Shown here piece by piece: positions 32,331 to 55,279 of a stretch of DNA of 64,000 nt. This stretch comes from Cephalotus follicularis. Lineage: Eukaryota > Streptophyta > Magnoliopsida > Oxalidales > Cephalotaceae. The notes beneath the pieces were generated by a model. That model made no database searches and was not told the origin of the DNA. It saw only the letters and a list, made by a program, of their open reading frames with translations. The position numbers and the translations under genes were made by a program. The stretch's first letter is position 1. Each line of letters begins with the position of its first letter. The stretch covers positions 117,308 through 181,307 of the forward strand of contig BDDD01000174.1 of assembly GCA_001972305.1 (NCBI GenBank). Direction: 5' to 3'.

Positions 32331-32417
32331 GTACTTGCCATGCATATTTACTCAAATATGCAACAATTCATAGCCATATGCAAGCAACCATATGCTCAAA
32401 ATGTAGACAAACCCTTT

Positions 32418-33565: not shown

Positions 33566-33730
33566 CAAGCGTCACTTTTCCTTTATTTTTCCCAACTCAA
33601 CAACATTTCTTCAACGCCCTTTATTGAAACTCAAAACAAGAAGTTGGAAATCCATAATTATCATTAATTCATCATGGAAAATACAAAGGAATTTACATTA
33701 ATATATTAAACAAAAATTCCGGGCATTACA

Positions 33731-33775
33731 TTCACTCTGATTTCAAGGAAATTCAATCTCGAATTTATAGCATCC
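33731..33775 (-). other. B pol end to 3' LTR junction with decayed polypurine tract
   Basis: On the minus strand the integrase stop is followed by about 45 bp ending in GAAATCAGAGTGAA directly before TGTAATGCCC. This is purine-rich but lacks the G run seen in element C. Confidence 0.5.
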
Positions 33776-35039
33776 CTAAAACAAATGGGGGTGATGTTCC
33801 CTCATCTCCTCTTCACGCTCCCATGTCCCTTCATCAGGGTGATGGAACTGCCATTGAACCTTTACCATAAGGATGGTGCGGTTCCTCAACACTTGAGTCT
33901 TCCAATCCAGAATCCTTACAGGCAACTCGTCACAAGAAATGTCATCTGGAACTGCTACCGAATCATAATCCAAGATGTGTGATGGATCCCGGATGTAACC
34001 TTGTAGCATAGATTATGAAAAACATCATGTACTCCGGATAATGCAGGAGGCAAGGCAAGCTGGTATGCTACCTCCCCAACCCTCTCAAGAATCTGAAAAG
34101 GACCAATATAGCGTGGAGCTAACTTGCCCTTTTTCCCAAACCTCTGAACGCCCTTCCAAGGAGACACTTTCAAAAACACATGATCACCGACATCAAAAGT
34201 TAAAGGCCTCCTTCTAACATTGTCGACATAACTCTTCTGCCGACTCTGAGCTGCAAGCAGCCTCTCTTTAATCATCTTGACCCTCTCTGTAGTCTCCTTG
34301 ACCAGATCAGATCCAAGTATCGGTCGGTCCCCAACCTCATCCCAACAAATAGGTGACCTGCACTTCCGTCCATACAGAGCCTCGTACGGAGCCATGCCAA
34401 TACTCAAGTGATAACTGTTATTGTACGAGAACTCAATCAAGGGAATATGATCCTCCCAAGTACCAGCAAAGTCAATAACACAGGCGTGGAGCATTTCCTC
34501 CAAAGTCTAGATAGTGCGCTCTAACTGCCCATCTGTCTGAGGATGGAAAGCTGTGCTAAAGTTCAGCTTCGTCCCACAAGCTGTCTGAAATGTCTTCCAA
34601 AAGTTGGAAGTAAAGATCGAATCCCGATCACATACGATACTAACAGGAACACCATGCAGTCTCACATTCTCCTTAATATACAGTCGAGCAAACTTGCTCG
34701 CTGAATCAGTAACATGTGAGGCAAAAAGTGAGCTGATTTCGTCAGTCTACCAACAACGACCCACACCGCATTGTGACGATTCCGTGTGAACGGAAAACCA
34801 GAAACAAAATCCATAGTCACGTGTTCCCATTTCCACTCCGCCACTGGCAATGGCTGCAACAACCCCGCCGGTCTCTGATCTTCGGCCTTGACCTTCTGGC
34901 AAGTCAAGCACTTAGCGATATACTCAGCAATCTCTCGCTTCATACTAGGCCACCAATAATTCTGCTTCATCTCGATACATTTTGGTGCTACCATGATGGA
35001 TACTGTTCCGTGATTTGTGAGCTTCATAATACAACTCAC
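33776..35039 (-). pseudogene. pol: Chromovirus B integrase and chromodomain, frameshifted
   Basis: Three overlapping minus-strand segments cover the integrase. First the zinc finger and start of the catalytic core ([55 protein letters not shown]). Then the core end with the glutamate region (EEMLHACVIDFAGTWEDH, IEFSYNNSYHLSI, YGRKCRSPICWDEV) and GPY/F block (GKLAPRYIGPFQILERVG). Last a chromodomain (LRNRTILMVKVQWQFHHPDE, GTWEREEEMREHHPHLF). Stops and frameshifts near 34504, 34660 and 34000 separate them. This is the integrase plus chromodomain order of a chromovirus. Confidence 0.87.
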
Positions 35040-35865
35040 CTTTCAACCCCTCAACATCTGGAAGACACACCCGTCCCCGAAACCTCAATATACCATCAGC
35101 ATGTACCTGGAAGTTAGGCCTCGACTCCAAAGCCTCTAAGATCTCATGCAATTCGGGATCATACGGTTGATCACTCTTTATCTCATCAAGTGGGGCTGAT
35201 TGTCCTCTAATGCTAGCAACAAAGACTCCAGGAGATCGTGTAAACGGAGTCCATTTCTGGAAATCCTCCGGCATCCTCCACTGAGACACCATCGTACTAG
35301 CTATCATAGCTTTAGGACTCAATGCATCAGCAACAATGTTTGCCTTGCCAGGGTGGTACTGGATGCTACAATCGTAATCATTAAAGAACTCCACCCATCT
35401 TCGCTGCCTCATGTTTAACTCATCCTGGCAAAACAAGTACTTTAGACTTTTATGATCATTGAATATCTCAAAGTGCGCCCCATACAAATAATGTCTCCAC
35501 TTCTGAAGAGCAAACACAATAGCGGCCAGTTCGAGATCATGCGTCGGGTAATTCTCTTCATACGGCTTTAGCTTCCTCGAAGCATATGCAATCACTCTGC
35601 CCTGTTGCATCAGTACGCAACCCAAACCTTTACCCGAAGCATCACTGTAAACCGCAAAACCCTCACTACCCTCGGGTAATGCCAAGGCAGGTGCAGAAAC
35701 CAAGCGATCCTTCAGCTCTTGAAAGCTGACCTCACAATCCTTGTCCCAGACGAACAAGGTCTTCTTCTGAGTAAGCATAGTCAAAGGTGCAACTATCCTC
35801 AAGAAGTTCTGGATGAACCTCCAGTAATAACCCGCCAAGCCAAGAAAACTACGCACCTCTGTCAC
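34945..35865 (-). pseudogene. pol: Chromovirus B RT thumb and RNase H
   Basis: The minus-strand frame starts [20 protein letters not shown], then [18 protein letters not shown], and RNase H with [48 protein letters not shown] (the third acidic residue retained) and [30 protein letters not shown]. It runs into the integrase N-terminus ([10 protein letters not shown]). It is separated from the polymerase segment by stops at about 35868-35880. Confidence 0.88.
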
Positions 35866-36735
35866 ATTCCTTTGTTACGGTCAATCACGCACCACCTCAG
35901 TCTTTGACGGATCCACCGCAAAGCCCTCACCAGATGCTATGTGACCAAGAAAGATCACGTGGTCAAGCCAGAATTCAAACTTACCGAACTTGGCATACAA
36001 ACAATGTTCCCTAAGAATCTGCAAGACCAACCTCAGATGATGCGCATGTTCCTCCTCGTTCCTCGAGTATATTAGAATGTCATCAATGAATATCACCATG
36101 AACTGGTCCAGATAGGGCCGAAACACATCGTTCATCAATGACATGATAGCTGCAGGTGCATTGAGAACACCAAATGGCATCACCAGAAACTCATAGTGAC
36201 CATACCGCGTTCAAAAAGCAGTCTTTTTGATGTCTCCTTCCCTTACTCTCAGCTGATGATAACCTGACCTCAAGTCAAGTTTAGAAAACACCCTCGATCC
36301 TTGTAATTGATCGAACAACTCCTCAATGTGTGGGAGGGGATACTTGTTCTTGATAGTGGCCTTATTCAACATCCGATAGTCGATGCAAAGTCTCATCGAC
36401 CTATCCTTCTTCTTCACAAATAACACCGGTGCTCCCCACGTGGAAACACTAGGTCGAACAAAACCCTTGTCGATCAGATCCTGTAACTGCAACTTCAGTT
36501 CTCTCAACTCCGCAGGAGCCATCAGGTAAGGTGTTTTAGAAATAGGAGTAGTACCAGGAACAAGATCAATAACAAACTCCATATTCCTCCTTGGCGGCAA
36601 TGACTCTAAGTCTGCCGGAAACACATCAGGAAATTCACTTACCACAGGAATTTCCTCCAAGTTCAATCCCTTCTCTTTCCTCCTATCAATCACATAGGCC
36701 AAATACCCTTCGCATCCCTTCTCGAGGTACCTCAC
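35866..36735 (-). pseudogene. pol: Chromovirus B reverse transcriptase with nonsense codons
   Basis: The minus-strand frame has [39 protein letters not shown], the fingers block [38 protein letters not shown] and [19 protein letters not shown] near 36208-36210 replaces the arginine of the [12 protein letters not shown] motif. The palm continues with [18 protein letters not shown] and the active site [13 protein letters not shown], then [18 protein letters not shown]. The catalytic FIDD is intact. Three nonsense codons between here and RNase H make it inactive. Confidence 0.88.
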
Positions 36736-36777
36736 AGGACGAGTGAAGGATATTATTGGTGTAGAAAATCCCGTAAA

Positions 36778-37338
36778 CTAGAAGGTAGTACCATCAAGAA
36801 GACAAAAATCCACCGTCTTGCTGTAATAATCCATACGAGCATGATGAGCTGACAGCCAATCCATACCCAAGATGATGTCAAAGTCATGAATGAGCAACAC
36901 TATCAAATCTGCATATAACGGAACACCCGCCACAAAAATCTCACAACTTCCATACATTGAATCCGCAAACATGGTGTCTCTAGCCGGATTACTCGCATAA
37001 AGCATATATGGCATGCAAACAGGTGCCACATCCAAACATGAAGCAAATCGTGAAGCAATAAAGAAATGTGATGCTCCAGGATCCATTAACACTCTAGCAG
37101 AAAAGCCATAAACATATACTGTACCTCCAATAATAGAAGTAGACTTCGGAACCTCTGTCTGAGTAAGGGTGAAAACTTTACCTTTCATGATACTCTTTCC
37201 AGTATCCCTCCCCTGTGAAGGTCCGGTTGCAGTATCGCTGCCACCCGTATGTCCAGTGGGCACTGTCGCTCGACCCCTCAGAAAATCTGTCGTCGCATGA
37301 CCGGATGTCCCACACTTTGCATATAACCCATTCTTCAC
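36778..37338 (-). pseudogene. pol: Chromovirus B Gag C-terminus and aspartic protease
   Basis: It begins in a damaged second Gag zinc knuckle (YAKCGTSGHATTDF: the first and last cysteines are Tyr and Phe). After GKSIMKGKVFTLTQ it enters the protease with VLMDPGASHFFIASRF, where the catalytic DSG/DTG triad reads DPG, and then HDFDIILGMDWLSAHHARM. The changed triad would inactivate the protease. A stop at 36775-36777 separates it from reverse transcriptase. Confidence 0.83.
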
Positions 37339-38297
37339 CCAACAATCCTTTTGCTAATGACCCTGGTTGGGAGTACCCTCTGTGGTGGACTGCTGAGCTT
37401 TGTTCTTTGAAGACTTGGACGAAGAACCACTGCCTTGCCATTCTAATGAAGCTAGTCTGGACTGTGTGTGGGCCTGTTTAGTCTGTTGCATACGGGCTCT
37501 CTCAGCAAGGTCGTCATTTTGTATGCTCTCCAATAGGCTCGTCTTTTGGGTGACCTGCACAAAGGATCCCAGCTCCATGGCTCTAACTCTCGCCTGAAGG
37601 TCCGGTTGCAGGCCCCTCATGAACCTTCGAATATTTTTCTCTTCATCTGCCACCAGATAAGCTGAGTGTCTAGCCAACTCCATAAATCTTGCCAGATATT
37701 CAGCCATTGTCATATCCCCTTGACGTAGCTCCAAGAGCTCCGTCTCTCTACACTCACGCTCTATCTGTGCCACATAAGCCTCAAGAAACTCCTCTTGGAA
37801 CCTCTCCCAAGTACTAGCAAGTTTGTCAGACTCCCACTTTGCTTTGACCATTTCCCACCAATGAGTGGCCTCACCCCATAACCGGTACACTGCAAACTTC
37901 AACTTCTGCTCGTCGGTACAATCGATGACATCAAAGATCTTTTCTAAGTCTTACAGCCATCTCTCTGCAATAGTAGCATCTAGCTCTCATCTAAAACTGG
38001 GAGGATTTTACAAAATAAATCTCTCAAGGTTCCTCCCGAACTGGTTACCGTCATCATATGCACCACAACCCAGAGTCGCGTGTCGAGGCTGTGCTTGGGT
38101 GTATAACCGCCTCATCTCCTCCAAGTTAGCTGCATTGGCAGCTATCTGCTTCTAGAAGTAGTCTACCATGCGATCTATCGGATCTCTCCCAACATTTCCT
38201 TCCCCGGGAACATTAGCCACCGGCTCTCCCCCGACGTTTGCTTCTTGAAGGGCATCCTCATTAATAGCTCTACGCCTTCCAGGTCTTATCCGTCCAT
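37339..38297 (-). pseudogene. gag: Chromovirus B gag
   Basis: The minus-strand ATG at 38297 aligns with the start of C gag, then a frameshift within a few codons. The N-terminal third (GNQFGRNLERF, ELDATIAERW, DLEKIFDVIDCTDEQKLKFA) carries at least four stops. The central Gag domain is open from 37902 (AVYRLWGEATHWWEMVKAKW, STWERFQEEFLEAYV, ELRQGDMTMAEYLARFMELA, RRFMRGLQPDLQARV). The first CCHC knuckle is reduced to GH, stop, QKDCW near 37350. Close similarity to C gag (49.3-49.7 kb) links the two families. Confidence 0.83.
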
Positions 38298-38392
38298 TTC
38301 GTTCCCTATAAGGATGATGTAATTGGTCATCTCATGGAACAATTATTAATTGCTAAGAAACATATCAAAGCTAAGCATATAATATCATATAT

Positions 38393-38404
38393 GCTCTTAT
38401 ACCA
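38393..38404 (-). other. Primer-binding site of B (initiator Met tRNA type, one change)
   Basis: On the minus strand it reads TGGTATAAGAGC, one base different from TGGTATCAGAGC, 4 bp after the LTR end at 38409. Confidence 0.8.
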
Positions 38405-38408
38405 ATGT

Positions 38409-39521
38409 TGTCACACCCTGTTTCCATAAATAACATTTATCGTGGCAATTTAACATAATATCTGGCTTCTGCAATTTACAGGAAACTTTTAAACTTTCCA
38501 GACATATAAACAGTGCAGAAGCATTTAATGATAAGCCGAATCTAAACACGTATCGCATATCACATACTACGCGATACCAACATTTAACAATAATATAATA
38601 AGCACATTGTCAATTACCCACAACAGAGCGTGATCACAACAACCATCAATACATAAATCAAAAACAGTAATCCATATATTACAGCAGTTCTTTTAACAAA
38701 AGAAGTACAAGTCCAACTCTACTTCACTTCCCCACCTTGCTTGAATGGCGGCAAGTCCACTACATCAATCTGAAATTGATAGGGAAAGCCGAATCCACTG
38801 GCTAAGTAGAGAAAACATAAAAGTACTTTGGGGACAGTGATAACAGATGTCATGAAATGAATGCATTCATGATGCATGCACAAATATACATATACCTATA
38901 TATGTATTTAACAATAGGCAAACAACCATGTCAAAAAACCAGATGCTAACCGGCAAAGGCGAGGAGGGCCCGAGGGCTAACTGTCCAAGGCTAGGAACAG
39001 CATCCCACAACAAACAAGCCAACCCGGGCCCGATATAGGAAAGCTGGCGGGCAAACCGTTCTATGGTACAGGGGTCAATCCAAAAATACATTTTCAAGTA
39101 GTTATACGCAATAACACTTGGAATATAACAAAATACATTTCAAGTAGCTATATATAATAACTCTCAAAATATGACATTTATTCAAAATGTATAATCCAAA
39201 ATCCATTTCAAGTAGCTATATGTAATAACACTTGAAATACATTTATATATTTTTATAGAATATATATAAAACAAATCCTTTTCAAGTAATTTATATGCCA
39301 TAAAGTACTTTCCATACATATGTACTCAAATATGCAACAATTCATAGCCATATGCAAGCAACCATATGCTCAAAATGTAGACAGACCCCTTTGGCGTCAG
39401 CATATACCCCATACGCGTCAATGTGTAAGTAGTTCTCTTAGGCGTTAACGCCTATCCTAGGCGTCAACGTGTAAGGCAACCCACTCAGGCGCAAAAACAT
39501 GCTCTAGGTTTCAGTACATGC
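38409..39521 (-). mobile_element. Chromovirus B 5' LTR, only its last 1.1 kb
   Basis: On the minus strand it ends AACAGGGTGTGACA at 38409, next to the primer site. It follows the 3' LTR (31436 onward) for about 1.1 kb, including the AAGTAGCTATATATAATAAC repeats and a few GGCGTCAACG palindromes at 39390-39510. It stops inside the distal palindrome cluster at ...CAACAGC, where A-type LTR sequence begins. The first ~1.2 kb of the LTR is missing. Confidence 0.83.
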
Positions 39522-39578
39522 AACAGCAAGCCCAAATATCACATAACATAAAAAGACGCAAATATCAAAACTGCCAGA

Positions 39579-40862: not shown

Positions 40863-42161
40863 TCCGGCATTTCTGAAGGAGTCGACGCTTAGCGCCCACA
40901 AAATAAAAACAAAGGATTTTCATCATAAAATCAAACGGTTCAAAAACCATAGCATAAATCAGAAGACATGAACACAACAATTATACCATATGCAGGGGAT
41001 GGTACTGATAACCCCTCAACAGAGACACATGGAACACATTATGGACATGAGACAATTATGGAGGCAAAGCTAACCAATACACAACTGCTCCAACCTTTTC
41101 CAGAACTTCAAAGGGTCCTATATACAGAGGACTCAACTTCCCTTTCAAGACAAAATGACGGACTCCCTTCTTAGGTGAGACCTTCAAAAACACATGTTCA
41201 CCTACTTTGAACTCCAATTCCCTCCGATGTCTATCTGCATAACTTTTCTGTCTGGATTGAACTGCCTTCAATCTCTCCCTTGCTATAGCCACTTTATCAG
41301 TAGTGATCTGAACTAGCTCAGGTCCCTCAATAACTCTTTCTCCAACCTCATCCCAACACGTCGGAGCTCGACACTTTCTTCCATACAACGCTTCAGACGG
41401 AGCCATCCAAATGCTAGCATGCAAACTGTTATTGTAAGCAAACTCCACTAAACTCAAGTACTCATCCCAATTTCCAGTCCACTCTAAAGCACCAGACCTA
41501 AGCATGTCCTCTAAAGTTTGGATAGTCCTCTCAGACCTCCCATATGTCCGTGGGTGGAAAGCTGTACTGTAATTGAGTCGCATTCCTCAAGCCTTCTTGA
41601 ATCCTTTCCAAAACTGCGAAGTGAAACGGGGATCCCTATCCAAAACAATGGATACCGGTGTCCCGTGAAGTCTCATTATCTCCTTATGGAAAACCTCCGC
41701 CAAACGGTCCAGAGAGAAATCCTCTCGAATAGCCAATAAATGCAGCGATTTGGTCAAACGATCCACCACTACCCAGATGGCATCATTTCTTCTGAAAGTT
41801 CTCGGCAAACCAGTAACAAAATCCATCGCTATGCTCTCCCATTCCAAAACTGGAATCTCCAAGGGTTGTAACAATCCACTGGCTCGCTGGTGCTCAATAT
41901 TGACCTGCTGACAAACCAAACACCTCCCAATATAATCGGCCACATCCCTCTTCATTCCATTGCACCAGAAATTTCTCTTGAAATATCTATACATTTTTGT
42001 AGAACAAGGATGTATAGAGAACGAAGAGCTGTATGCCTCTGACAGAATGGCCTCTCTGATTTTTGGATCAGTAGGCACACATAACCGTCTACCCAACCAA
42101 ATAACTCCATGCTCATCCACACAGAACTCTAACTGCTTACCTTCATCAACATTCTGGACTA
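40863..42161 (-). repeat. Duplicated block: LTR scrap plus A integrase segment
   Basis: 40863-40978 repeats the LTR sequence at about 40708-40829. 40980-42160 then repeats, at the DNA level almost without change, the A integrase region 43145-44320 (identical translations, for example [24 protein letters not shown] and TCWDEVGERVIEGPELVQIT). At 42161 it switches back into LTR sequence. The coding content is a copy of the A integrase, including its TGA at about 41584-41586. Near-identity beside an N gap suggests an assembly duplication. Confidence 0.75.
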
Positions 42162-42763
42162 AATCTACAACCCTCTAATATGCAAAACAGTAATAAGGTG
42201 GTAATAATGAAGATAGTAGAATGTCATACCTTCAAATGACACAAACAGATGATGAGAGAATGCAAGAAAATTTGCTGCCAGTTTTTGAAAAGATAAGGCA
42301 GATGCAGTGGTTTTTAAAACAGTCGAAAGTATAAGTTAAATGCTGAACTCATTGTCTTGAAGGCAAAGATTGGTGGATTCAAAACCTTCCATTTGTGCAG
42401 AAAACGCGTCTAACCAACAAGGAAAATGGATGAACTGAAAATGGCAAAAATCTCATCTTCCATACAAACCCACCGTCTAGACAGATAAGGAAAACCATAC
42501 ATAAGCGTCGATGGTAATGTCAAGGCATCGACGCTTACACCTTTAAAAGCCAAACGCATCGATGTCATGAATATGGGCGTTGACGTGTTTCACAAAGCCA
42601 AAGCATCGGGATTTCTGATCAAGGAGTCGACGCTTAGCGCCCACAAAATAAAAACAAAGGATTTTCATCATAAAATCAAACGGTTCAAAAACCATAGCAT
42701 AAATCAGAAGACATGAACACAACAATTATGATAAACACGTAAGCATAGAAACGGGGCATTACA
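42162..42763 (-). mobile_element. A-family LTR start, second copy (adjacent to the gap)
   Basis: Its minus strand starts TGTAATGCCCCG at 42763 and runs about 600 bp, nearly identical to 40258-40862 (two differences noticed), including the palindrome cluster at 42503-42640. This copy is in the right place to be the start of the A 3' LTR, because the polypurine-like G run lies directly before it on the minus strand. Confidence 0.8.
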
Positions 42764-42960: not shown

Positions 42961-45327
42961 TTATTCAAACAAATGAGGGTATTCCTCCCGAATATGCTCC
43001 TCCAACTCCCATGTAGCCTCACGTCCAGGATGGTTCCTCCACAAGACCTTGACAAAAGAAATGGTCTTATTACGAGTAACCCGCTTCTGCCGATTCCGCC
43101 TCCTCATCACAAGATGAATCCTCCCGAATACTGTCCAAAGGATAGTGAACCATATGCAGGGGATGGTACTGATAACCCCTCAACAGAGACACATGGAACA
43201 CATTATGGACATGAGACAATTATGGAGGCAAAGCTAACCAATACACAACTGCTCCAACCTTTTCCAGAACTTCAAAGGGTCCTATATACAGAGGACTCAA
43301 CTTCCCTTTCAAGACAAAATGACGGACTCCCTTCTTAGGTGAGACCTTCAAAAACACATGTTCACCTACTTTGAACTCCAATTCCCTCCGATGTCTATCT
43401 GCATAACTTTTCTGTCTGGATTGAACTGCCTTCAATCTCTCCCTTGCTATAGCCACTTTATCAGTAGTGATCTGAACTAGCTCAGGTCCCTCAATAACTC
43501 TTTCTCCAACCTCATCCCAACACGTCGGAGCTCGACACTTTCTTCCATACAACGCTTCAGACGGAGCCATCCAAATGCTAGCATGCAAACTGTTATTGTA
43601 AGCAAACTCCACTAAACTCAAGTACTCATCCCAATTTCCAGTCCACTCTAAAGCACCAGACCTAAGCATGTCCTCTAAAGTTTGGATAGTCCTCTCAGAC
43701 CTCCCATATGTCCGTGGGTGGAAAGCTGTACTGTAATTGAGTCGCATTCCTCAAGCCTTCTTGAATCCTTTCCAAAACTGCGAAGTGAAACGGGGATCCC
43801 TATCCAAAACAATGGATACCGGTGTCCCGTGAAGTCTCATTATCTCCTTATGGAAAACCTCCGCCAAACGGTCCAGAGAGAAATCCTCTCGAATAGCCAA
43901 TAAATGCAGCGATTTGGTCAAACGATCCACCACTACCCAGATGGCATCATTTCTTCTGAAAGTTCTCGGCAAACCAGTAACAAAATCCATCGCTATGCTC
44001 TCCCATTCCAAAACTGGAATCTCCAAGGGTTGTAACAATCCACTGGCTCGCTGGTGCTCAATATTGACCTGCTGACAAACCAAACACCTCCCAATATAAT
44101 CGGCCACATCCCTCTTCATTCCATTGCACCAGAAATTTCTCTTGAAATATCTATACATTTTTGTAGAACAAGGATGTATAGAGAACGAAGAGCTGTATGC
44201 CTCTGACAGAATGGCCTCTCTGATTTTTGGATCAGTAGGCACACATAACCGTCTACCCAACCAAATAACTCCATGCTCATCCACACAGAACTCTAACTGC
44301 TTACCTTCATCAACATTCTGGACTAAGGCCCATAATTCAACATCGTCACTCTGAGCCGCCTTAATTCGAGATATAAGGGTAGGTTCGACATTCATCCCCA
44401 CAATAAAACCTCCAGAACTCCAAACGAACAAGTTCAAGTCTAACCGCTCCATATCTGATATCAACTGCGACTGAGTAAGCAAAGCTGCTACACTCCCAGA
44501 ACTCTTCCTACTCAGAGCATCAGCTACCACGTTAGCCTTACCAGGGTGGTACTGAATATTTAGATCATAATCCTTCTGAAGCTCCAACCATCGCCTTTGT
44601 CGCATGTTCAGCTCCTTTTGAGTAAAGATGTACTTGAGAGTCTTGTGATCGGTAAAAATGTCACAAGTTTCTCTGTAAAAATAATACCTCCAGATCTTTA
44701 AAGCAAAAACCACCGCTACTAACTCCAGGTCATGTGTGGGGTAGGTCAACTCATAAGGCTTAAGCTGTCTGGAAGCATAAGCTATGACATGACTGTGCTG
44801 TATCAGAACGTAACCCAAACACTTCTTGAAAGCATCGCTGTATATCTGGTACCCATCTGACCCAGACGGTAATCGAAGAATTGGTGCAGACACAAGACCA
44901 TTCTTCAAATTCTCAAAGCTTGCCTCACGTTCTTCGTTCCACACAAACTTGGCTCCCTTTCTCATAAGCTGAGTCAGTGGTAAGCATATAGAGGAAAAGC
45001 CTTTCACAAACCGTTTGTAGTAACCAGCCAAACCCATATAGCTTCTCACCTCTATAACTATGGTAGGTTTTGACCATTTAGTAATAGCCTCAACCTTAGC
45101 AGGATCCACACTGATGCCTTCAGCAGTAACCATGTGACCGAGAAATCCCACATGTTCCAACCAGAACTCACACTTTGAAAACTTCGCATATAGCTGATTC
45201 TTCCTTAAAATCCCCAGCACTATACGAAGTTGTTCCTCATGCTCTTCTCTTGACTTGGAAAACACTAAGACATCATCTATAAACACAATGACAAACCAAT
45301 CCAAGACCTAATGGAAAACCCTATTCA
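42961..45327 (-). pseudogene. pol: Chromovirus A RT (C-terminal part), RNase H, integrase, chromodomain
   Basis: The minus-strand frame from 45327 has the RT active site [46 protein letters not shown] and RNase H ([58 protein letters not shown]). The integrase zinc finger ([18 protein letters not shown] ... RCLVCQ) and DDE core follow ([31 protein letters not shown]). A TGA at 43748-43750 replaces the Trp of KKAWG, and a TAG lies near 45308. The GPY/F block is KGKLSPLYIGPFEVLEK. The chromodomain (about 42961-43120) is present but shifted out of frame by a small deletion; its end reads ELEEHIREEYPHLFE. The upstream part continues at 55280, beyond element C. Confidence 0.87.
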
Positions 45328-45332
45328 TCAAG
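45328..45332. other. Left target-site duplication of element C (TCAAG)
   Basis: TCAAG directly precedes the C 5' LTR and recurs at 55275-55279 directly after the 3' LTR. The A reverse transcriptase sequence is continuous across the insertion if one copy is removed. Confidence 0.93.
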
Positions 45333-45681
45333 TGTAACGCCCCGAATTTCATAAATAATTATTATGAAATTGGTACGTGTATGGTTGTAATAAAACCGAT
45401 GGAGGCTGGAGTAATAAAAAGGCATTACGCGTTGAAGTCGTAATTGCGTTGCCCAAAACGGCTAATAAAACCTATTTTCATTGCACGACAATAAAGCCCA
45501 AATGTTCGCATTTCTATTGCGATTATTTTGGTAGTCATTTGGATAATTTATATCGCGGTTTACAAAAAAATCGGGACCCAGACCTTAGTATTTTACCAGA
45601 AAATTCTAAGGAGGGAGGAAAATAATAAAGGAAGAAGGGGGAGACACAGGCGCATAGCGCGCTCGTGCGAAGGGGTACTGC

Positions 45682-45684
<3 letters not shown>

Positions 45685-45720
<36 letters not shown>
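45685..45720 (+). repeat. GA microsatellite in C 5' LTR
   Basis: About 36 bp of alternating GA, followed by more GA-rich sequence to about 45750. The equivalent in the 3' LTR is at 52258-52294, interrupted by GATA. Confidence 0.95.
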
Positions 45721-45721
<1 letters not shown>

Positions 45722-46025
45722 CTGGGAGAGACAGTGAGAGAGAGAGGGAGAGAGGGCGCCGGAGACGACGCCGGAGCCAGCCACGTGACTAGGAGAGGAC
45801 GGCGGACCACCCAGGCACGCCTACCATAGGTAAGCTCCTCCCCCTTCCCCTCTTTTCTCTTCATTTTCTTCTTCTTCCCCGCCACTGTCGCACCTCCGCC
45901 GTGCGTTTCCCGGCGCCATTAGCGTCGCGAATGGCGTGGGTTATGGTGTAGAAGGCCCGCTCTACCCATTTTGACCACCGATGAGGCGTGATTCTGCTGG
46001 AAATGGCCAGAATAAGTTTACTGAG

Positions 46026-46190
46026 TCAACTCAGCGAGTCGACTCACTGCCGCCTGAGACACAACGTTTGGCGCCGAGTCTCGGCGAGTCACGAGCAGTG
46101 ACGCGTAGGGCTGGTGAATGTGGGGTGTTTTTGGGTGGTGATCGGACCTGTTGAGGTCTGGCGAGTCGACTCAGTGAGTCGCAACTCACT
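46026..46190. repeat. TCGA-palindrome cluster (GAGTCGACTC type) in C 5' LTR
   Basis: TGAGTCAACTCAG, CGAGTCGACTCACT, CGAGTCTCGGCGAGTC, CGAGTCGACTCAGTGAGTC and related units. The core is the same as in the other families but the flanks are GAG/CTC. Confidence 0.85.
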
Positions 46191-46833
46191 ACCGTCCATG
46201 GCGCGGCGTTCGGTGCCAATTCCCGGTGAGCCTTGACCGGTTTTGAGTAGACCATTCAATGTGGAACCCGTTGTTGGGTGTTTCGCGAGCTGGATGAGTC
46301 GGCCGGATTCCGGCCTGCATTTCGGTGACGGCAATGCTTTATGCGTTGATCGTAACGGAAATGTGTTGTATGTGCAGTGTGCGAGTGGCAATTGGATTTG
46401 GCATTGAGGAACTGATCAATAAGCGAGAACCGGGTTCGGTTCAACGGTTTCTGGGAAAGGTTCAGCAATTGAACCTGCGGCTCGACTATATTGCTGCTAC
46501 TACGATTCCTAGCTTGGAATAAGAGGTAGGGGAAGCTATACATGCAACTTTGAGTTCAATAATATTGTATTGCCATTGATGAAATGCATGGTTTACGGAT
46601 TGTGAATTGTGTGACTGTGTTAGGGTTACTGTGAATAGTTAACCTGTTATGCATATCGTGTTGCAGAATGATTGTGGACCGTGGATTATGGATTGTGTGA
46701 CTATATTAGGGTTACTATGAATAGTTAACCTGTCATGCATATTGTGTTTTACAATGATCGGATTGCATGTGTTGTATGCTTGAACTCTATTGGTTTTGAG
46801 ACGTGTTGAGGGAACCGTGTTTTGGTTCGCTTA

Positions 46834-47106
46834 ACCGTCGACGCTTAGGAAAGAAGCATCGACGCTATGGATTGTTATACGGAGAATGATTCCTAATTCG
46901 CGATAAATGTCGACGCTTACATAAACGTCGATGCCATGATTCATTGTATGTGAGAATGGACACGTGTTCCGTTGATGCCTGAGGTTCCTACCTCAGAGCA
47001 TCGACGCCAAAGGGATGAGACGTTGACGCGTAAAGTTTCTGGTTGATAGCGTTGACACCAAGAGTTAAGCGGCGATGCTTAAGTGACTGGGTTGAACATT
47101 AACGCC
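46834..47106. repeat. TCGA-palindrome cluster (GCGTCGACGC type) in C 5' LTR
   Basis: ACCGTCGACGCTTAGG, AGCATCGACGCTATGG, ATGTCGACGCTTAC, ACGTCGATGCC, ACGTTGACGCG, GCGTTGACACC. This LTR thus has two different palindrome types. The 3' LTR copy lost about 20 bp here. Confidence 0.85.
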
Positions 47107-47523
47107 TATATGGTGCATGTTGTCGCGAATAGAACCCGTTTGATTTATTGAGCATATGTTCGCATTGCATACAATTGTTGATTGAGCTATCACCTGATTT
47201 CTAAAATTTTCTTCATTTTAGAAGTGTATAAATTGTTTATTAAATCATTGTTATATGGAAATGTATGTTTTCCAAAAGGATTGTGAAAGTGGTTTTAAGG
47301 GATTGAGAAACTGTTATGCGAAAATGAGTATTTTTGTGTATTCGAACATGATTCGAATGACTGGTTTTACATTTTAAAATGTATTGTTTTTTAGTATTGT
47401 ATTATACATTGCAACTACTTGAAAACGATTGCAAAAGGATTGTTATATATATTGAGCAAATATATATGTTTTTCAAGTGTTTATATTTATAAATTACTTG
47501 AAATGGATTGAGAAACTTGTGAT

Positions 47524-48062
47524 GACTACTAAGCCCTGTTGGGTAAGTAGCCAAGACCGTGCACCGTTTTAAAAGGACCGATGTACATTTGGAAATGTAT
47601 TGTTTACAAGTTTTATATTTGTTAATAATTACTTGTAATGGATTGATTGATTGTGTTTGGCTGCTAAGCTCTGTTGAGTAAGTAGCCAAGAACTCTACTG
47701 CTAAGCTCTGTTGAGTAAGTAGCCTGAGATTCCATATATGGTAGCTATTAAGCTCTGTTGAGTAAGTAGCTAGGGTTTCCCAAGCAATGGTTACTAAGCT
47801 CTGTTGAGTAAGTAGCCAGGGACCCCCTTTTGGGTTACTAAGCTCTATTGAGTAAGTAGCCAGGAACTCCACTGCTAAGCTCTGTTGAGTAAGTAACTGG
47901 AGATTCCATATACGGAAGCTACTAAGCTCTGTTGAGTAAGTAGCTTGGGTTTCCCATACAATGGTTACTAAGCTCTGTTGGGTAAGTAGCCAGGGACTCC
48001 CTTTTGGTTACTAAGCACTATTGTGTAAGTAACCGGTTGCTAAGCACTGTTGTGTAAGCAAC
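47524..48062 (+). repeat. Array of eleven hairpin units in C 5' LTR
   Basis: The core unit is GCTACT-AAG-CTC-TGTT-GAG-TA-AGTAGC, spaced about 30-50 bp apart, with one longer gap after the first unit. The inner 3-bp stem occurs as CTC/GAG, CCC/GGG (first unit), CAC/GTG (last two units) and the wobble form CTC/GGG. The outer stem occurs as GCTACT/AGTAGC, GGTTACT/AGTAACC and GTTGCT/AGCAAC. Loops are TGTT or TATT. Some middle units have decayed outer stems. The minus strand is open for 156 codons across it, but only as a reading of the repeat. Confidence 0.9.
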
Positions 48063-48069
48063 TTCAATT

Positions 48070-48180
48070 GGACTGATGGGTCTTAGTGACCTGATTACTG
48101 GATTGATCAGCCCATTGAGGCATAACTAATGGATTGTCTGGTCCTTTGAGGACATGATTGTGATTGGTCCGCTGAGGACA
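48070..48180 (+). repeat. Second hairpin group in C 5' LTR (4-bp stems, 5-nt loops)
   Basis: GGTC-TTAGT-GACC, then GTCC-TTTGA-GGAC, then GTCC-GCTGA-GGAC, spaced about 30-60 bp apart, directly after the main hairpin array. The same group is in the 3' LTR at about 54615-54725, with GTCC-GTTGA-GGCA and GTCT-GCTGA-GGAC as decayed forms. Confidence 0.7.
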
Positions 48181-48339
48181 TGACCGTGATTGTGTTGATG
48201 TAGCCCTAACGGGTTGCACCTTTACTGTGAATATGCATATATAGATACATATATATATATAGTGTTATATATACCGTACTGCATCACTGTGCATTCATAC
48301 ATGACATGCATTATCATTGAAACAAAACTGTATTTATAC

Positions 48340-48364
48340 TTAGCCGAAAGAGGACAAAGGCTAA
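48340..48364. repeat. Conserved LTR hairpin TTAGCC ... GGCTAA in C 5' LTR
   Basis: 6-bp stem, 13-nt loop, then CCCCCTACAATTTCA, about 390 bp before the LTR end. The 3' LTR copy is at 54884-54908. Confidence 0.7.
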
Positions 48365-48734
48365 CCCCCTACAATTTCATATTGATTTCAGGTTGATGCA
48401 GCGGATTGTTACCGCTGAGTTTCGTGGAGCAAAATGGAGTTTTATGTTGTTTTTACTTTCGAGAAACAATAATGGATCATTGTAATAAATGAATCGATGT
48501 ATTGATGAATATTGTTCACGCTCCGTTTAAGGGCAGTTAACTTTGATGATGTTTATTGTTGTAGCATATAGTATGGGATGCATGTTACGTTTTAATTCGG
48601 CTTATATTTAAATTCTTCCGCAAGTTTTTAATGGCTATGGAAAGTTTTAAATTTATGGTAAATTGCATAAGCCGGATTTATATGTTGATTGCCGCCACTA
48701 TATATGTTGTTTGTAAAACGGGGTGTGACAACAG

Positions 48735-48746
48735 TGGTATCAGAGC
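48735..48746 (+). other. Primer-binding site of C (initiator Met tRNA type)
   Basis: A perfect TGGTATCAGAGC lies 4 bp after the 5' LTR end. Confidence 0.93.
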
Positions 48747-48846
48747 ATATATCCATTTATATGCTTAGCTTGGATAAGTTCTTTGGCAATTAACGAATGG
48801 TTTCCTTGAGATGATTACTAATGACATCTTTTCCATATAGGAACAA

Positions 48847-50030
48847 ATGGACAGAAGGAGAACACGTGCGAGAGCTAGAGCCGCTGAGGCAGATGCTCCC
48901 CGGGAAGCGAGTGTTCCACAAGGGGTGAATGTTCCCCAAAATGCAAATGAAAGGAAGGATCCGATGGATCGGATGGCCGACTACTTTCTGTAGCAGATGG
49001 CTGCTAATGCAGCTAATATGGAGGAGATGCAGCGATTGTACGCCCAAGCTCAGCCGCGAGGTATGGCTCCCAACCAGGGTGTATATCACGAGGGAAGTCA
49101 GTTTGGAAGGAACCTTGAAAGGTTTATGAGACAGAATTCACCCAGTTTTAGAGGAGAGTTGGATACTACCATTGCTGAGAGGTGGTTACAGGATCTAGAA
49201 AAGATCTTTGAAGTGATGGACTGCACTGACAGCCAAAAAATTGAAGTTTGCAGTATATCGACTCTAGGGTGAGGCCATCCACTGGTGGGAGATGGTCAAG
49301 GCAAAGTGGGAGTCGGCTGGACTCGACGATACATGGGAAAGGTTCCAAAGGGAGTTCCTTGATACTTATGTACCTCAAATTGAACAAGAACGGAGAGAGA
49401 CAGAACTCATGGAGCTGCGACAAGGAGAGATGACTGTGGCCGAATACCAGGCCAGGTTTATGGAGCTAGCCAGACACTCAGCTTATCTGGTAGCTAACGA
49501 AGAAAAGAAGATTCAGAGGTTCTTGAGAGGCCTGCGACCGGATCTTTGGTCAAGGATTAGAGTGATGGAATTGGGGACTTTTGTACAAGTCGCTCAGAAG
49601 GCGAGATTGCTGGAGAGTATCCAAAATGAAGACCGCGCTGAGAGGGCTCACGTGCAGTAGAACAGACAAGCCCCCACACAGTCTAGACCAGCTCCATTGA
49701 AAGGGCAGGGTAGTGGTTCTCTGACGAAACCATCGAAGAACAGACTTCAACAGACCGTTATTCATGGTACTCCTAGTCAAGGGAGTAATGCGAGGATTGA
49801 AGTCTGTCCTTATTGTGGCCGCAAGGGCCATCAACCGGAAGATTGCTGGTGGAAGAATGGCTTTTGCACGAAGTGTGGAGCACCTGACCATTTACGGAGG
49901 GATTGTCCGACGAGGCAAGTAACAGTGCCCACTGGACCTACGAGTGATGGTGGCGCCACAGCTGGACCATCACAGCGGAGAGATACCGGTAAAAGCATCA
50001 TGAGAGGTAAGGTCTTCGCTCTTACCTTTA
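48847..50030 (+). pseudogene. gag: Element C gag with two CCHC knuckles
   Basis: The ATG at 48847 opens MDRRRTRARARAAEADAP, followed by ANMEEMQRLYAQAQPRG, GSQFGRNLERFMRQ, ELDTTIAERWLQDLEKIF. Defects are a TAG in the DYFL*QM segment (about 48991), one extra A in a homopolymer near 49240, a TAG shortly after, and a TAG at 49658-49660. The Gag core is intact from 49292 (EFLDTYVPQIEQERRETE, ELRQGEMTVAEYQARFMELA, RFLRGLRPDLWSRI). Two CX2CX4HX4C knuckles, CPYCGRKGHQPEDC and CTKCGAPDHLRRDC, are both complete (about 49806-49910). The frame is lost after GKSIMRGKVFALT, where protease would begin in B. It is closest to B gag. Confidence 0.87.
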
Positions 50031-51689
50031 CAGGTTACTTATATAGTCCAAAGTACATCATATTGTTATTTATCGTAACTGTATTCATTAGATGGTTATG
50101 GTTGGCAAGTGTATTGTTATCGATCGTATCGTATTGTCATGAGCCATTATCAACGGATGGTGATCGAATGAACTGTTATTGAGCGGTTAATGATCATATG
50201 GACCATAAATGGTTATGGACCGTGAACGGCTGTTGGCCGTAACGGATATGAATTGTAGAATGGTATTGACCGTAAACGGCTATAGGCCATAAACGGATAC
50301 GAATTATGAATGGATATAGACCGTAAACGGCTATGGACCGTAAACGGATGTGAAATGTAATGGATAGAGCACAATCATTGATTGATACGGGACGAAAGGC
50401 CCCGGATGATGGTATATGGTAGAGTTACTGATGACGTATTGTGTTATGACTTGTATAAATGTGAAATGACATTGTTCACATTGCTTATGCTATGTACGCA
50501 TCTCACATGATTGACATTTTATATATATCTGCTACACCTCTGGATACATTCATTGCATTTGTATATTGTACACAGCTATTGGCTGCTGACCGTTTCATTG
50601 AAATGAAGTGGGTCAGGTTTGGGTTCAGATGGCAGTTACAGTGATTAGTCAAGACAAGCGCATGGTAAGAAATTTCATTTCTCCAGCCTATCTTGTGTTA
50701 TATGAATAAAGTAAGGGAACTGATATTTTGAGGCTTGTTATTTTATATTATATGACCTGCCGGCATGTGGCAGTGCTGCAAATGAATGTGTCTTGATGTA
50801 TTGGACCTGCCGGCATGTGGCAGTGCATCATTTGATCGGTCTATGATATTACTGGATATGATCAGACCCATCATCTGAGGTTTTGACGTGATTATCCTTC
50901 GCATGTGTATGATATTATTGGATATGATCAAACCCATCATTGAGAGTATTGAAAGGATTGTCCTTTGCATGCAAATGATATATTTGGATTTAATTGAGAT
51001 GTAATCTGGTGTGGGTGGAGCCCCCAGCATATAGATTGTCATGAGATATGAGGGTTAAACCCCAAAACATATAAACTGTGGTTTCTCAGGTGGCATGGAC
51101 TTCGATAAAAGAATACTTCATGCCGAAATTTCGAAAAATCCTAAGAGTGATTTTAATGGATTCATTACTTGAGATATTAGAATGATGATTCGGATCTAAA
51201 TTGTGGTTTATTAAGGCCTGAGCCCATTTATGACTGTTGGTTCCTCCTTCGGGAGTACGGATATAAATTGTGTTTTCTTTACAGGGGGCATAGTCCTGTA
51301 AACAAATACTTCATGCCCGATTTTTGGGAGATTATAAGAGTTGAAATGTATTCAACTGATTATTCTGCTGACATGATGTGATTGTTTAAAGATCGAGATT
51401 ATAGCACTCTTGAGTATGATTGATGTATGACTGTTGCAGAGCTGTGCTGGATATACCAGTGTAGGATCCTTACTGTTGGGAGATTGAAAGTGATATGATT
51501 GATTAAGTGCTAATTGGAGTTATTTGGAGTTGCGGAATAATAATGGGTAAGATGTTGGGTTCTTGGAGACCTAGTGATATGGATATAGTATGGTTACAGA
51601 TTGAACGTATGCAGATTGTGCGGTTACGGAACGTGCGGTCACAAGCCATATAGTTATGGATCGTATGCTTATGAATTGTTTGATGTGGA
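50031..51689 (+). other. Non-coding interior of C, rich in small repeats
   Basis: No gene is supported. 50165-50350 has repeated CCGTAAACGG / CCGTGAACGG / GCCGTAACGG units. 50756-50830 has two copies of CTGCCGGCATGTGGCAG (5-bp stem). 50850-50990 has two copies of a GGATATGATCARACCCATCA unit. 51050-51320 has a repeated motif around ACTTCATGCC(C)GA with ...TTTCGAAA/TTTTTGGGA. It replaces the pol genes. Confidence 0.6.
50165..50350. repeat. CCGTAAACGG palindrome array in C interior
   Basis: At least five units of the ACCGTAAACGG type with ATAT/TATGG spacers alternate with GGCC-containing variants. The units are short inverted repeats (CCGT...ACGG). Confidence 0.65.
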
Positions 51690-51891
51690 TGAGCTGTGGT
51701 CGCAAGCCTACCGCTCCACTTTCTCCATACATCCGGCGATTTACAAGATGTATCGAGATCTGAAGCTCGATATTGGTGGTAGTGTGATGGTAATACCATG
51801 GGCTTGGAAGGCCACTTGGAACGAGAGGTAGAAGTGAAGGCATTCTACCTTTACATGTTTAATCTAGGGAATCTCGGGACGAGATTTCTTT
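51690..51891 (+). pseudogene. pol: Relics of integrase zinc finger and pol end in C
   Basis: ELWSQAYRSTFSIHP, then KMYRDLKL, matches the integrase HHCC start (compare [17 protein letters not shown] in B). It is followed soon after by KATWNER, a scrap like the chromodomain TWERE segment, and then GGGACGAGATTTCTTTAAGG, the usual sequence just before the polypurine tract. So C arose from an autonomous element by deletion of most of pol. Confidence 0.6.
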
Positions 51892-51904
51892 AAGGGGGGG
51901 AGGA
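51892..51904 (+). other. Polypurine tract of C
   Basis: AAGGGGGGGAGGA directly before the 3' LTR start TGTAACGC at 51905. Confidence 0.9.
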
Positions 51905-52263
51905 TGTAACGCTCCGAATTTCATAAATAATTATTATGAAATTGGTATGTGTACGGTTGTAATAAAACCGATGGAGGTCGGAGTAATAAAAAGGAATTAC
52001 GCGTTGAAGTCATAATTGTATTGCCCAAAACGGCTAATAAAACCTATGTTTAATGCGCGACAATAAGCCCAAATGTTTGCATTTTTATTGCGATTATTTT
52101 GGTGGTCGTTTGGATAATTTATGTCGCGGTTTGCGGAAAAATCGGGACCCAGAGCTTAGTATTTTACCAGAAAATACTAAGGAGGGAGAAAAATTATAAA
52201 GGAAGAAGGGGGAGAAACGGGCGCATAGCGCCCCCGTGTGAAGGGGTACCTGCAGACGAGAGA

Positions 52264-52294
<31 letters not shown>

Positions 52295-52592
52295 GCTGGG
52301 AGAGACAGAGGGAGGGAGAGGGAGAGAGGGTGCCGGAGACGACGCCGGAGCCAGCCACGTGACCGGGAGAGGACGGCGGACCACCCAGGCACGCCTACCG
52401 CCGGTTAGCTCCTCCCCCTTCCCCTCTTTTCTCTTATTTTTCTTCTTCTTTCCTGCCACTGTCGTACCTCCGCCGTGCATTTCCCGGCACCGTTTGAGTC
52501 GCGGATGGCGTGGGTTATGGTGTAGAAGGCCCTCTCTACCCATTTCGACCACCGGTGAAGCATGATTCTGCCGGAAACGACCGGAATCAGTT

Positions 52593-52765
52593 GACTGAGT
52601 CGACTCAGCGAGTCGACTAACTGTTGCCTGAGACACGGCGTTTGGCGCCGAGTCTCGGTGAGTCACGAGCAGTGACGCGTAGGGCTGGTGAATGTGGGGT
52701 GTTTTTGGGTGGTGATCGGACTTGTTGAGGTCTGGCGAGTCGACTCAGTGAGTCGCAACTCACTA
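52593..52765. repeat. TCGA-palindrome cluster (GAGTCGACTC type) in C 3' LTR
   Basis: Same place and unit type as 46026-46190; the first unit here is TGAGTCGACTCAG, without the decay seen in the 5' copy. Confidence 0.85.
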
Positions 52766-53397
52766 CCGGCCGTGGCACGGCGTTAGGCGACGATTCCCGG
52801 TGAGTCTTGACCGGTTTTGAGTACACCGTTCAATGTGGAACCCGTTGATGGGTGTTTCGCAAGCTGGATGAGTCGGCCGGATTCCGGCCAGCGTTTCGGT
52901 GATGACAATGCTTTGTGCGTTGAAATGTGTTGTATGTGCAGTGTACGAGTGGCAATTGGATTTGGCATTGAGGAATTTATCAATAAGTGAGAATCGGGTT
53001 TGGTTCAACAGTTTCTGGGAAAGGTTCAGCAATTGAACCTGCGGCTCAACTGTACTGCTGCTACTGCGATTCCTAGCTTGGAATCAGAGGTCGGGGAAGC
53101 TATACATGCAAGTTTGAGTTCAATAATATTGTATTGCCATTGATGAAATGCATGGTTTGCGGATTGTGAATTGTCTGACAGTGTTAGGGTTACTGTGAGT
53201 AGTTAACTTGTTATGCATATCGTGTCGTAGAATTATTGTGGACTGTGGATTATGGATTGTGTGACTATGTTAGGGTTACTATGAATAGTTAACCTGTCAT
53301 GCTTATTGTGTTTTACAATGATCGGATTGCATGTGTTGTATGCTTGAACTCTATTGGTTTTGAGACGTGTTGAGGGAACCGTGTTTTGGTTTGCTTA

Positions 53398-53650
53398 ACC
53401 GTCGACGCTATGGATTGTTATACGGAGAATGAGTCCTGATTCGCGATAAACGTCGATGCTTACAGAAAACGTCGATGCCATGATTCGTTGTATGTGAGAA
53501 TGGACACGGGTGCCATTGACGCCTGAGGTTCCTACCTCAGAGCATCAACGCCAAAGGGATGAGACGTTGACACGTAAAGTTTATGGTTGAAAGCGTTGAC
53601 ACCAAGAGTTAAGCGGTGTCGCTTAAGTGACTGGGTTGAACATTAACGCC
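53398..53650. repeat. TCGA-palindrome cluster (GCGTCGACGC type) in C 3' LTR
   Basis: Counterpart of 46834-47106, missing one unit. It includes ACGTCGATGCTTAC and ACGTTGACACG. Confidence 0.85.
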
Positions 53651-54069
53651 TATATGGTGCATGTTGACGCGAATAGAGCCCGTTTGCATTATTGAGCATA
53701 TGTTCGCATTGCATACAATTGTTGATTGAGCTATCACCTGATTTTTAAAATGTTCTTCATTTTAGAAGTGTATAAATGGTTTATTAAATCATTGTTATAT
53801 GGAAATGTATGTTTTCCAAGAGGATTGTGAAAGTGGTTTTAAGGGATTGAGAAACCGTTATGCGAAAATGAGTATTTTCGTGTATTCGAACATGATTCGA
53901 ATGATTGGTTTTACATTTTAAAATGTATTGTTTTCGAGTATTTTATTATACATTGGAACTACTTGAAAACAATTGCAAAAGGATTGTTATATATATGGAG
54001 CAAATATATATGTTTTTCAAGTGCTTATATTTATAAATTACTTGAAATGGATTGAGAAACTTGTGATGA

Positions 54070-54606
54070 CTACCAAGCCCTCTTGGGTAAGTAGCCAAGA
54101 TTGTGCACCGTTTTAAAAGGACCGATGTAAATTTGGAAATGTATTGTGTACAAGTTTTATATTTGTTCATAATTGCTTCTAATGTATTGATTGATTGTGT
54201 TTGGCTGCTAAGCTCTATTGAGTAAGTAGCCAGGAACTCCAATGCTAAGCTCTGTTGAGTAAGTAGCCAGAGATTCCATATATGGTAGCTACTAAGCTCT
54301 ATTAAGTAAGTATCTAGGGTTTCCCATGCAATGGTTACTAAGTTCTGTTGAGTAAGTAGCCAGGGACCCCCTTTTGGGTTATTAAGCTCTGTTGAGTAAG
54401 TAGCCAGGAACTCCACTGCTAAGCTCTGTTGAGTAAGTAACCAGAAATTCCATATACGGAAGCTACTAAGCTCTGTTGAGTAAGTAGCTTGGGTTTCCCA
54501 TACAATGGTTACTAAGCTCTATTGAGTAAGTATCCAGGGACTCCCTTTTGGTTACTAAGCACTGTTGTGTAAGTAACCGGTTGCTAAGCACTGTTGTGCA
54601 AGCAAC
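54070..54606 (+). repeat. Array of eleven hairpin units in C 3' LTR
   Basis: Counterpart of 47524-48062 with the same order of units. The first unit again has CCC/GGG (loop TCTT) and the last two CAC/GTG. The final unit here reads GTTGCT ... GTGC-AAGCAAC. Confidence 0.9.
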
Positions 54607-55274
54607 TTGAATTGGACTGATGGGTCTTAGTGACCTTATTACTGGATTGATCGGTCCGTTGAGGCATAACTGATGGATTGTCTGGTCCTTTGAGGACATG
54701 ATTGTGATTGGTCTGCTGAGGACATGACCGTGATTGTTTTGATGTAGCCCTAACGGGTTGCACCTTTACTGTGAATGTGCATATATAGATGCATATATGT
54801 ATATACTGTTATATATACCGTACTGCATCACTGTGCATTCATACATGACATGCATTATCATTGAAACCAAACTGTATTTATACTTAGCCGAGTGAGGACA
54901 AAGGCTAACCCCCTACAATTTCAGATTGATTTCAGGTTGATGCAGTGGATTGTTACTGCTGAGTTCCATGGAGCAAAATGGAGTTTTATGTTGTTTTTAC
55001 TTTTGAGAAACGATAATGGATCACTGTAATAAATGAATCGATGTATTGATGAATATTGTTCACGCTCCATTTATGGGCAGTTAACTTTGATGATGTTTAT
55101 TGTTGTAGCATGTAGTATGGGATGAATGTTACGTTTTAATTCGGCTTATATTTAAATGCTTCCGCAAGTTGTTAATGGCTATGGAAAGTTTTAAATTTAT
55201 GGTAAATTGCATAAGCCGGATTTATATGTTGATTGCCACCACTATATATGTTGTTTGTAAAACGGGGTGTGACA

Positions 55275-55279
55275 TCAAG
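55275..55279. other. Right target-site duplication of element C (TCAAG)
   Basis: Pairs with 45328-45332. Confidence 0.93.

Follow-up and report, generated by a model that had tools for sequence, protein, structure and literature searches.

The long terminal repeats (LTRs) of a retrotransposon in the genome of Cephalotus follicularis contain a run of small hairpins with stems of variable sequence. Has selection maintained these as folded structures, and if so, does it act on RNA or on DNA, and to what end? We have studied this in a 64,000-nucleotide stretch of contig BDDD01000174.1, here called the window. A sequence-only reading of the window had proposed that paired changes in the stems reflect selection on the folded form, in an element unable to move autonomously.

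The hairpins are carried by a gag-only, non-autonomous Ty3-type retrotransposon, occupying 45333 to 55274 of the window. The two LTRs were delimited by self-BLAST and a check of the borders. The 5′ LTR (45333–48730, + strand) has 3,398 bases and reads TGTAACG...GTGTGACA, while the 3′ LTR (51905–55274, + strand) has 3,370 bases and is preceded by a purine-rich tract resembling a polypurine tract. They are 92.8% identical to each other. The target-site duplication TCAAG flanks the element at 45328–45332 and 55275–55279, and the host site is a reverse-strand Ty3-type pol gene. A primer binding site, TGGTATCAGAGC, is seen in the sequence at 48735–48746 (+ strand), and we take it to be of the tRNA-Met type. 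The gag region is present in broken pieces (48997–50182, + strand), with a capsid-type domain and a CCHC zinc knuckle (Pfam Retrotrans_gag, E = 1.6e-17; zinc knuckle, E = 5.4e-6). For comparison we have used L141, a copy belonging to another subfamily, whose segment is cut within both of its LTRs; here gag is an open frame of 322 amino acids, whereas it is broken in the window copy. No pol domain was found by Pfam in the interior open reading frames scanned; neither three interior frames of the window nor the three other frames of at least 110 amino acids in L141 gave any Pfam match. The proposal of a non-autonomous element is thus borne out by the gag pieces together with the lack of a pol domain in the frames scanned. 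With its two LTRs, its target-site duplication, and gag as the sole retroelement protein among the frames scanned in the window and L141, the carrier fits the TR-GAG type.

Each LTR contains eleven hairpin units, 22 in the window, in agreement with the earlier count. The array of the 5′ LTR, defined by sequence and folding, extends over 47524–48062 (+ strand), exactly as first described, and its units start at 47524, 47659, 47696, 47743, 47789, 47833, 47870, 47917, 47963, 48006 and 48035. The array of the 3′ LTR, defined by sequence, lies at 54068–54606 (+ strand), and thus begins two bases before the position 54070 originally given. The unit folds into an outer stem, a 2 × 1 internal loop, an inner stem of 3–4 bp and a UGUU-type loop, the fourth pair of the inner stem being G·U. 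In unit columns, 2–8 pair with 24–30 and 11–14 with 19–22, A9 and A10 face A23, and the loop has four bases. The stem types listed in the sequence-only reading are all found in the window units, both for the inner stem (CTC/GAG, CCC/GGG, CAC/GTG and the wobble form CTC/GGG) and for the outer stem (GCTACT/AGTAGC, GGTTACT/AGTAACC and GTTGCT/AGCAAC). Over the 22 units 92.6% of the cells are paired, compared with 87.5% after shuffling (0/500), and control registers obtained by sliding give only 15–45% pairing. Changes on both sides are found at 4 of the 11 pairs. Taken alone, this number is not unusual among shuffled units (98/500).

The array as a whole is predicted to fold with −197.4 kcal/mol on the + strand (z = −7.2) and −150.6 kcal/mol on the − strand (z = −4.6); elsewhere in the window there are stretches with stronger z values than that of the array. 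All units of the 5′ array except 3 and 4 were folded, singly or with stems formed by the spacers, and these nine gave energies of −10.7 to −24 kcal/mol (z = −2.1 to −4.5). Two units may be lengthened by their spacers. In unit 9 the extended stem GGG-TCCC / GGGA-CCC (47946–48002, + strand; −24 kcal/mol, z = −2.67) is paired beyond its null in 148 arrays (96.8% compared with 89.3 ± 4.9%, 3/500). A possible extension of unit 7, GGAA-CTCCA / TGGAG-TTCC (47862–47908, + strand; −18.1 kcal/mol, z = −3.35), is weak in the same set (91.6% compared with 85.9 ± 4.3%, 40/500). A 174-bp tandem duplication (47656–48031, + strand; 2.2 copies, 91.3% identity between copies), in which units 2–5 correspond to units 6–9, gave rise to the form with 11 units. 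A covariance model of the units recovers 20 of the 22 window units, the last of each array overlapping its neighbor, and gives nothing else convincing elsewhere in the window. No Rfam family matches the array, either in a scan of the window or in a permissive scan of 47400–48800.

Other structures and repeats in the window may be recorded here. The strongest 200-base folds of the 64 kb are at 2601–2800 and 4401–4800 on the − strand (z = −8.2 to −10.8), and are unrelated to the array. A match to Rfam snoR71, a plant C/D snoRNA, lies at 13365–13471 on the − strand (46.7 bits), just before a long open reading frame of a different retroelement. A 1,178-bp direct repeat of 100% identity (40985–42162 and 43149–44326) overlaps a retroelement pol and is adjoined by a 604-bp repeat at 99.7%, reflecting either recent duplication or an effect of assembly.

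A genome of 1.58 Gb was searched for related arrays. A strict 18-base unit core gave 5,690 matches compared with 46 for the reversed control; unit matches in the thousands imply that the element has been mobile in the past. The covariance model, with E up to 0.1, gave 110 matches across 20 further loci, with 4 to 8 at each. We compared 148 arrays, comprising subfamilies A (n = 41; 11 units per array), B (n = 40; 6 units) and C (n = 33; 6 units), picked by similarity, and a fourth, mixed set (n = 34). Scoring in the array searches was limited to the best 40 of 2,019–2,485 candidates each, so that this is not a random sample. The fourth group contains 34 of 42 loci, those dropped (L078, L181–L186 and L190) having no match over 90% of the block. 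Among L078–L097, four loci (L081, L083, L088 and L097) were placed in no group. L001–L008 are repeats of places refetched as L009 and later, or lie inside the window, and L048–L077 were left ungrouped, though the ones on contigs C9 and C16 do not recur among the other loci retrieved. Groups A to C provide 889 unit rows, of which the 873 free of gaps were used in the unit-level covariation and tree-aware tests. Six unit types are found in the same order across the subfamilies. This recurrence speaks against gene conversion of two ancestral units only, the alternative that had been set against selection. Array matches that are side by side or paired within less than 1 kb, at L188 (G000:C2140:97675-98280) and L166/L177 (C813), are possible further array duplications.

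Is pairing in these arrays conserved beyond what their shared ancestry would give? Covariation was tested for each pair by a procedure modeled on R-scape, using a tree built with FastTree and a null that preserves columns. No stem pair alone reached E below 0.05 at the level of either the array or the unit. The array-level scan was dominated by subfamily markers, and the sole pair with E below 0.05, 47830–47835, is not in a stem. In the unit-level scan the middle inner pair ranked first of 378, with E = 0.36–0.89; thus the compensatory changes noticed in the sequence do not amount to a significant signal at any single stem pair of the unit alignment.

Tests of the whole structure gave a different result. 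Using 79 distinct units seen at least twice, the nine core pairs are paired in 97.05% of cells compared with 89.2 ± 3.3% in the tree-aware null (0/1000), and all eleven pairs in 93.9% compared with 87.9 ± 3.2% (11/1000). Doubly changed Watson-Crick cells over the eleven pairs number 63, against a null of 17.9 ± 9.6 (1/1000). For units seen at least four times there were 21 double changes compared with 7.8 ± 4.3 (9/1000), with a marginal excess of pairing (93.7% compared with 88.3 ± 3.4%, 50/1000). Orthologous arrays are 94.7% paired, compared with 88.2 ± 1.8% (0/500), but their doubly changed Watson-Crick cells do not exceed the null (42 compared with 55 ± 26), compensation in these arrays going by way of G·U. 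Since the joint tests are mostly significant, while single pairs and the double changes of orthologous arrays are not, we conclude that pairing is maintained as a whole, largely via G·U steps. RNAalifold over the block mixed up the units, and its result was not used.

The tree of the arrays contains a built-in control. Changes on terminal branches represent mostly decay after insertion, while inner branches represent the lineages that kept copying. A transition in a stem can leave the pair as G·U, whereas a transversion breaks it. For the block of units 6–10 in the 148 arrays, terminal branches gave a ratio of transitions to transversions in the stems of 195:183, clades of two to three arrays one of 47:20, and larger clades one of 38:2. 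At unpaired sites the corresponding ratios were 154:92, 46:19 and 24:22. The contrast on the deep branches, 38:2 in stems compared with 24:22 at unpaired sites, has p = 6.9e-6, and was retained on a tree calculated from unpaired columns only (p = 6e-5) and on leaving out A, B, C or the fourth group (p = 0.0036, 5e-4, 8e-7 and 0.0018 respectively). The ratio of inner to terminal rates in stems and spacers differs in the 148-array set (p = 0.014), but not when summed within groups A to C (p = 0.33). Where Watson-Crick pairs were lost, pair 14–19 being left out, the products G·U, A·C and mismatch number 71, 61 and 114 at the tips, and 40, 14 and 14 on inner branches. Comparing pairing kept with pairing broken among these losses, tips and inner branches differ with p = 1.2e-5.

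The types of loss also bear on the strand. A Watson-Crick pair is about equally likely to be lost to G·U or to A·C by mutation, and selection on + strand RNA prefers G·U. On inner branches the ratio of G·U to A·C was 40:14, compared with 71:61 at the tips (p = 0.013; 0.038 on the unpaired-column tree). C14 is in a CHG context and is frequently changed, and we have therefore relied on tree-based counts made without pair 14–19; with it included p = 0.059. On omission of A, B, C or the fourth group p became 0.049, 0.3, 0.076 and 0.017 respectively; within groups A to C the bias (27:15 compared with 107:77) was not significant (p = 0.49), and the G·U share of cells did not exceed the tree-aware null over the eleven pairs (359/1000) or the core (58/1000). 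A count of shared and private changes (34:12 compared with 47:50) weakened on removing CG/CHG sites or pair 14–19, and was set aside. The preference for G·U on inner branches leans toward sense RNA as the form that folds, and away from DNA, whether double-stranded or antisense. The folded form under selection is thus likely to be sense RNA, by a bias that is modest and is lost in some subsets. Weighing the deep-branch contrast, the G·U bias and the whole-structure tests against the null results, we think that selection has probably kept the sense RNA of the array folded. The original proposal of selection on the folded form is therefore supported in part, by the tree-aware tests of the whole structure and by the deep branches, but not by any stem pair on its own.

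Within the variable helix lies a core that has hardly changed. Columns 7, 8, 10, 12, 21, 24 and 25, which were chosen after the data were looked at, have 81 changes at the tips and 9 on inner branches, compared with 212 and 86 in the spacers. They comprise the pairs C7–G25, U8–A24 and C12–G21, framing the internal loop, and the unpaired A10. The loop ends U15 and U18 have 20 tip changes and 1 inner change. The other internal-loop positions behave differently; columns 9 and 23 have 6 and 7 inner changes (18 and 10 at the tips), column 23 having no fewer than the spacers, leaving A10 as the sole constant position of the internal loop. Such constancy inside a helix that otherwise varies might be expected of a protein-binding site.

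The assignment of the array to U3 depends on the promoter. An AT-rich, TATA-like stretch was identified by eye downstream of the array (48226–48290, + strand), where it may act as the promoter. It is common to the window, L141 and a pol-bearing relative, lying some 480 to 580 bases upstream of the end of the LTR. If this is the promoter, then the array lies in U3, and the RNA would contain it near its 3′ end alone. The pol-bearing relative is on the reverse strand of the window at 31435–39527, has an RNase H domain, and is 74% alike in its gag-side DNA; the covariance model found no unit in it, the one pol-bearing relative compared. Between the window and L141 the first 2 kb of the LTRs can be aligned only in patches. 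Units 6–11 (47829–48096) match at 85%, compared with only 77.5% for the wider region containing unit 1 and its flanks (47352–47858) and 79% for the stretch comprising the LTR end, primer site and gag.

Further small structures were observed in the LTRs. A perfect AT-rich inverted repeat lies at the very start of the LTR (45345–45371, and again at the start of the 3′ LTR), and L141 has one in the same place with different letters (about 6541–6571), with z = −3.1 and −3.25 in the window and L141 respectively. Two more hairpins, of GTCC/GGAC type, follow right after the array (48139–48190), where L141 has one of CCCC/GGGG type. Downstream of the TATA-like stretch, the hairpin TTAGCC...GGCTAA (48340–48364, z = −1.9) has identical arms in L141 and is a possible stem-loop of the R region. 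An acceptor-like TTTCAG near 48386 raises the idea of a role in splicing. By eye, short palindromes of the GTCGACGC type recur at 46840–47100 in the LTR and elsewhere, for example at 18370–18400.

The explanation that we prefer, with a probability of about 0.47, sees in the array a cis-acting RNA element, repeated in multiple copies and placed in U3 of a gag-only Ty3 retrotransposon of the TR-GAG type. If the array is in U3, it is the copy in the 3′ LTR that would be transcribed, near the 3′ end of the RNA. Each unit would form a hairpin whose stems are free to change while remaining paired, around the near-constant core. The core would be the putative binding site of a single protein, with repetition providing avidity, and the binder would most likely bring the genomic RNA into the replication path of the element. 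Within this explanation the element's own Gag, acting in packaging, is our tentative first candidate, taking around a third of it; recognition by Gag is attractive because Gag is all that the element encodes, its gene is open in L141, and the rest is supplied by others. A host export or stability factor might account for about a quarter, other binders taking the rest; export is also favored by precedents for structured RNA in U3 (PMC11379458; PMC12786077), in the portions of those articles available. A more far-reaching proposal, which we regard as doubtful, is that a multivalent RNA signal, absent from the one pol-bearing relative compared, arose in the non-autonomous element and was then amplified. 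This would favor the RNA of the element over that of its helper in access to Gag or an export factor, with the number of units acting as the dial of the competition.

The hairpins could instead have arisen without function, by tandem-repeat expansion and gene conversion of a hairpin-like unit. The number of units does vary by block duplication, and covariation is not significant pair by pair, yet the tree-aware nulls, the deep-branch contrast and the like order of unit types across subfamilies all run counter to this account, and we consider it very unlikely. Paired changes could also be generated without selection through correction of quasi-palindromes, where a template switch, occurring in replication or in reverse transcription, rewrites one arm as a copy of its partner. 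Swaps of T-A to A-T would be expected of such a process, as at 47916–47946 (92 TA and 38 AT of 147 arrays), as would the TA, AT and CG types of the middle inner pair. However, it leaves unexplained both the near-absence of transversions on deep branches alone and the persistence of G·U at pair 11–22, and one-step changes from one Watson-Crick pair to another account for only four unit-pair changes in orthologous arrays. It is thus quite improbable as the source of the pattern.

Among functional explanations, the units may be dyads in double-stranded DNA, that is, repeated palindromic sites for transcription factors forming a U3 enhancer. The array is upstream of the TATA-like stretch, several spacers are likewise dyads, the strand bias opposing this idea is only modest, and tandem U3 repeats with regulatory roles exist, for example in tobacco Tnt1, according to the available text of PMC3601003. 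Yet DNA dyads provide no reason to prefer G·T over A·C on one strand (40:14 among inner losses), nor would one expect stem bases to vary as long as they pair, or an asymmetric internal loop between the stems; we judge this unlikely, if deserving to be taken seriously. A role in RNA export or stability, as for RcRE, CTE and the RTE of IAP, overlaps our preferred explanation as one branch of it; a host or element protein bound to the hairpins would take unspliced RNA from the nucleus or shield it. On the accessible parts of the sources, structured RNA in U3 has such a role in HML-2 (RcRE; PMC11379458), and RTE and MTE export full-length RNA of mouse elements (PMC12786077), but the array is without an Rfam match, and taken as a separate answer this seems rather improbable. 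A decoy for small-RNA machinery or a dimerization signal was suggested in the sequence-only reading, and a precursor of small RNA might likewise be imagined from the large number of hairpins. Stems of about 11 bp would be short for Dicer-like enzymes, and a UGUU loop is not self-complementary and should be unable to kiss itself, making these roles highly improbable.

How the RNA of plant LTR retrotransposons is chosen for export and packaging is poorly defined, and we know of no such element in which a cis-acting signal for packaging or transport of the RNA has been defined. If the array is a multivalent signal, it would be an example. With its constant core, thousands of unit copies and natural variants, the repeated hairpin is a candidate open to direct test. 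The comparison of tips with inner branches, with the balance of G·U and A·C hinting at the strand, is applicable to other LTR families in the search for RNA structure. Whether export motifs of the CAR type exist in plant elements is called unclear in a 2025 review, in the text available (PMC12786077). No hairpin array under selection for pairing in a plant LTR was found among titles and beginnings of abstracts in an open-access library, which is weak evidence of absence; words for transposons or repeats are absent from the available portion of a 2025 paper on new classes of structured RNA in plants (PMC12218528).

The nearest known systems each share part of this arrangement, so far as the accessible portions of their descriptions go. 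Transcribed and mobile examples of TR-GAG elements exist, and like the present element these have two LTRs and a gag region without pol; the difference lies in the hairpin array, which those texts do not mention for TR-GAG (PMC8704663; PMC9784723). Retrozymes are also non-autonomous plant LTR elements with structured RNA in the LTR, but their LTRs, of about 350 bp, carry hammerhead ribozymes, and they lack a coding region (PMC4918200). No hammerhead was found here, in the Rfam scan of the window or the permissive scan of 47400–48800. RcRE, CTE and RTE are structured RNAs in U3 or near the 3′ LTR, as is proposed for the array; unlike the present array, they belong to animal retroviruses and elements, and are not described in the available text as arrays of equal small hairpins (PMC11379458; PMC12786077). 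Tandem repeats, here in the putative U3, are shared with Tnt1, whose repeats act, by the account accessible, in the regulation of transcription (PMC3601003), whereas in the Cephalotus array it is the pairing that is conserved, with a modest bias to the sense strand.
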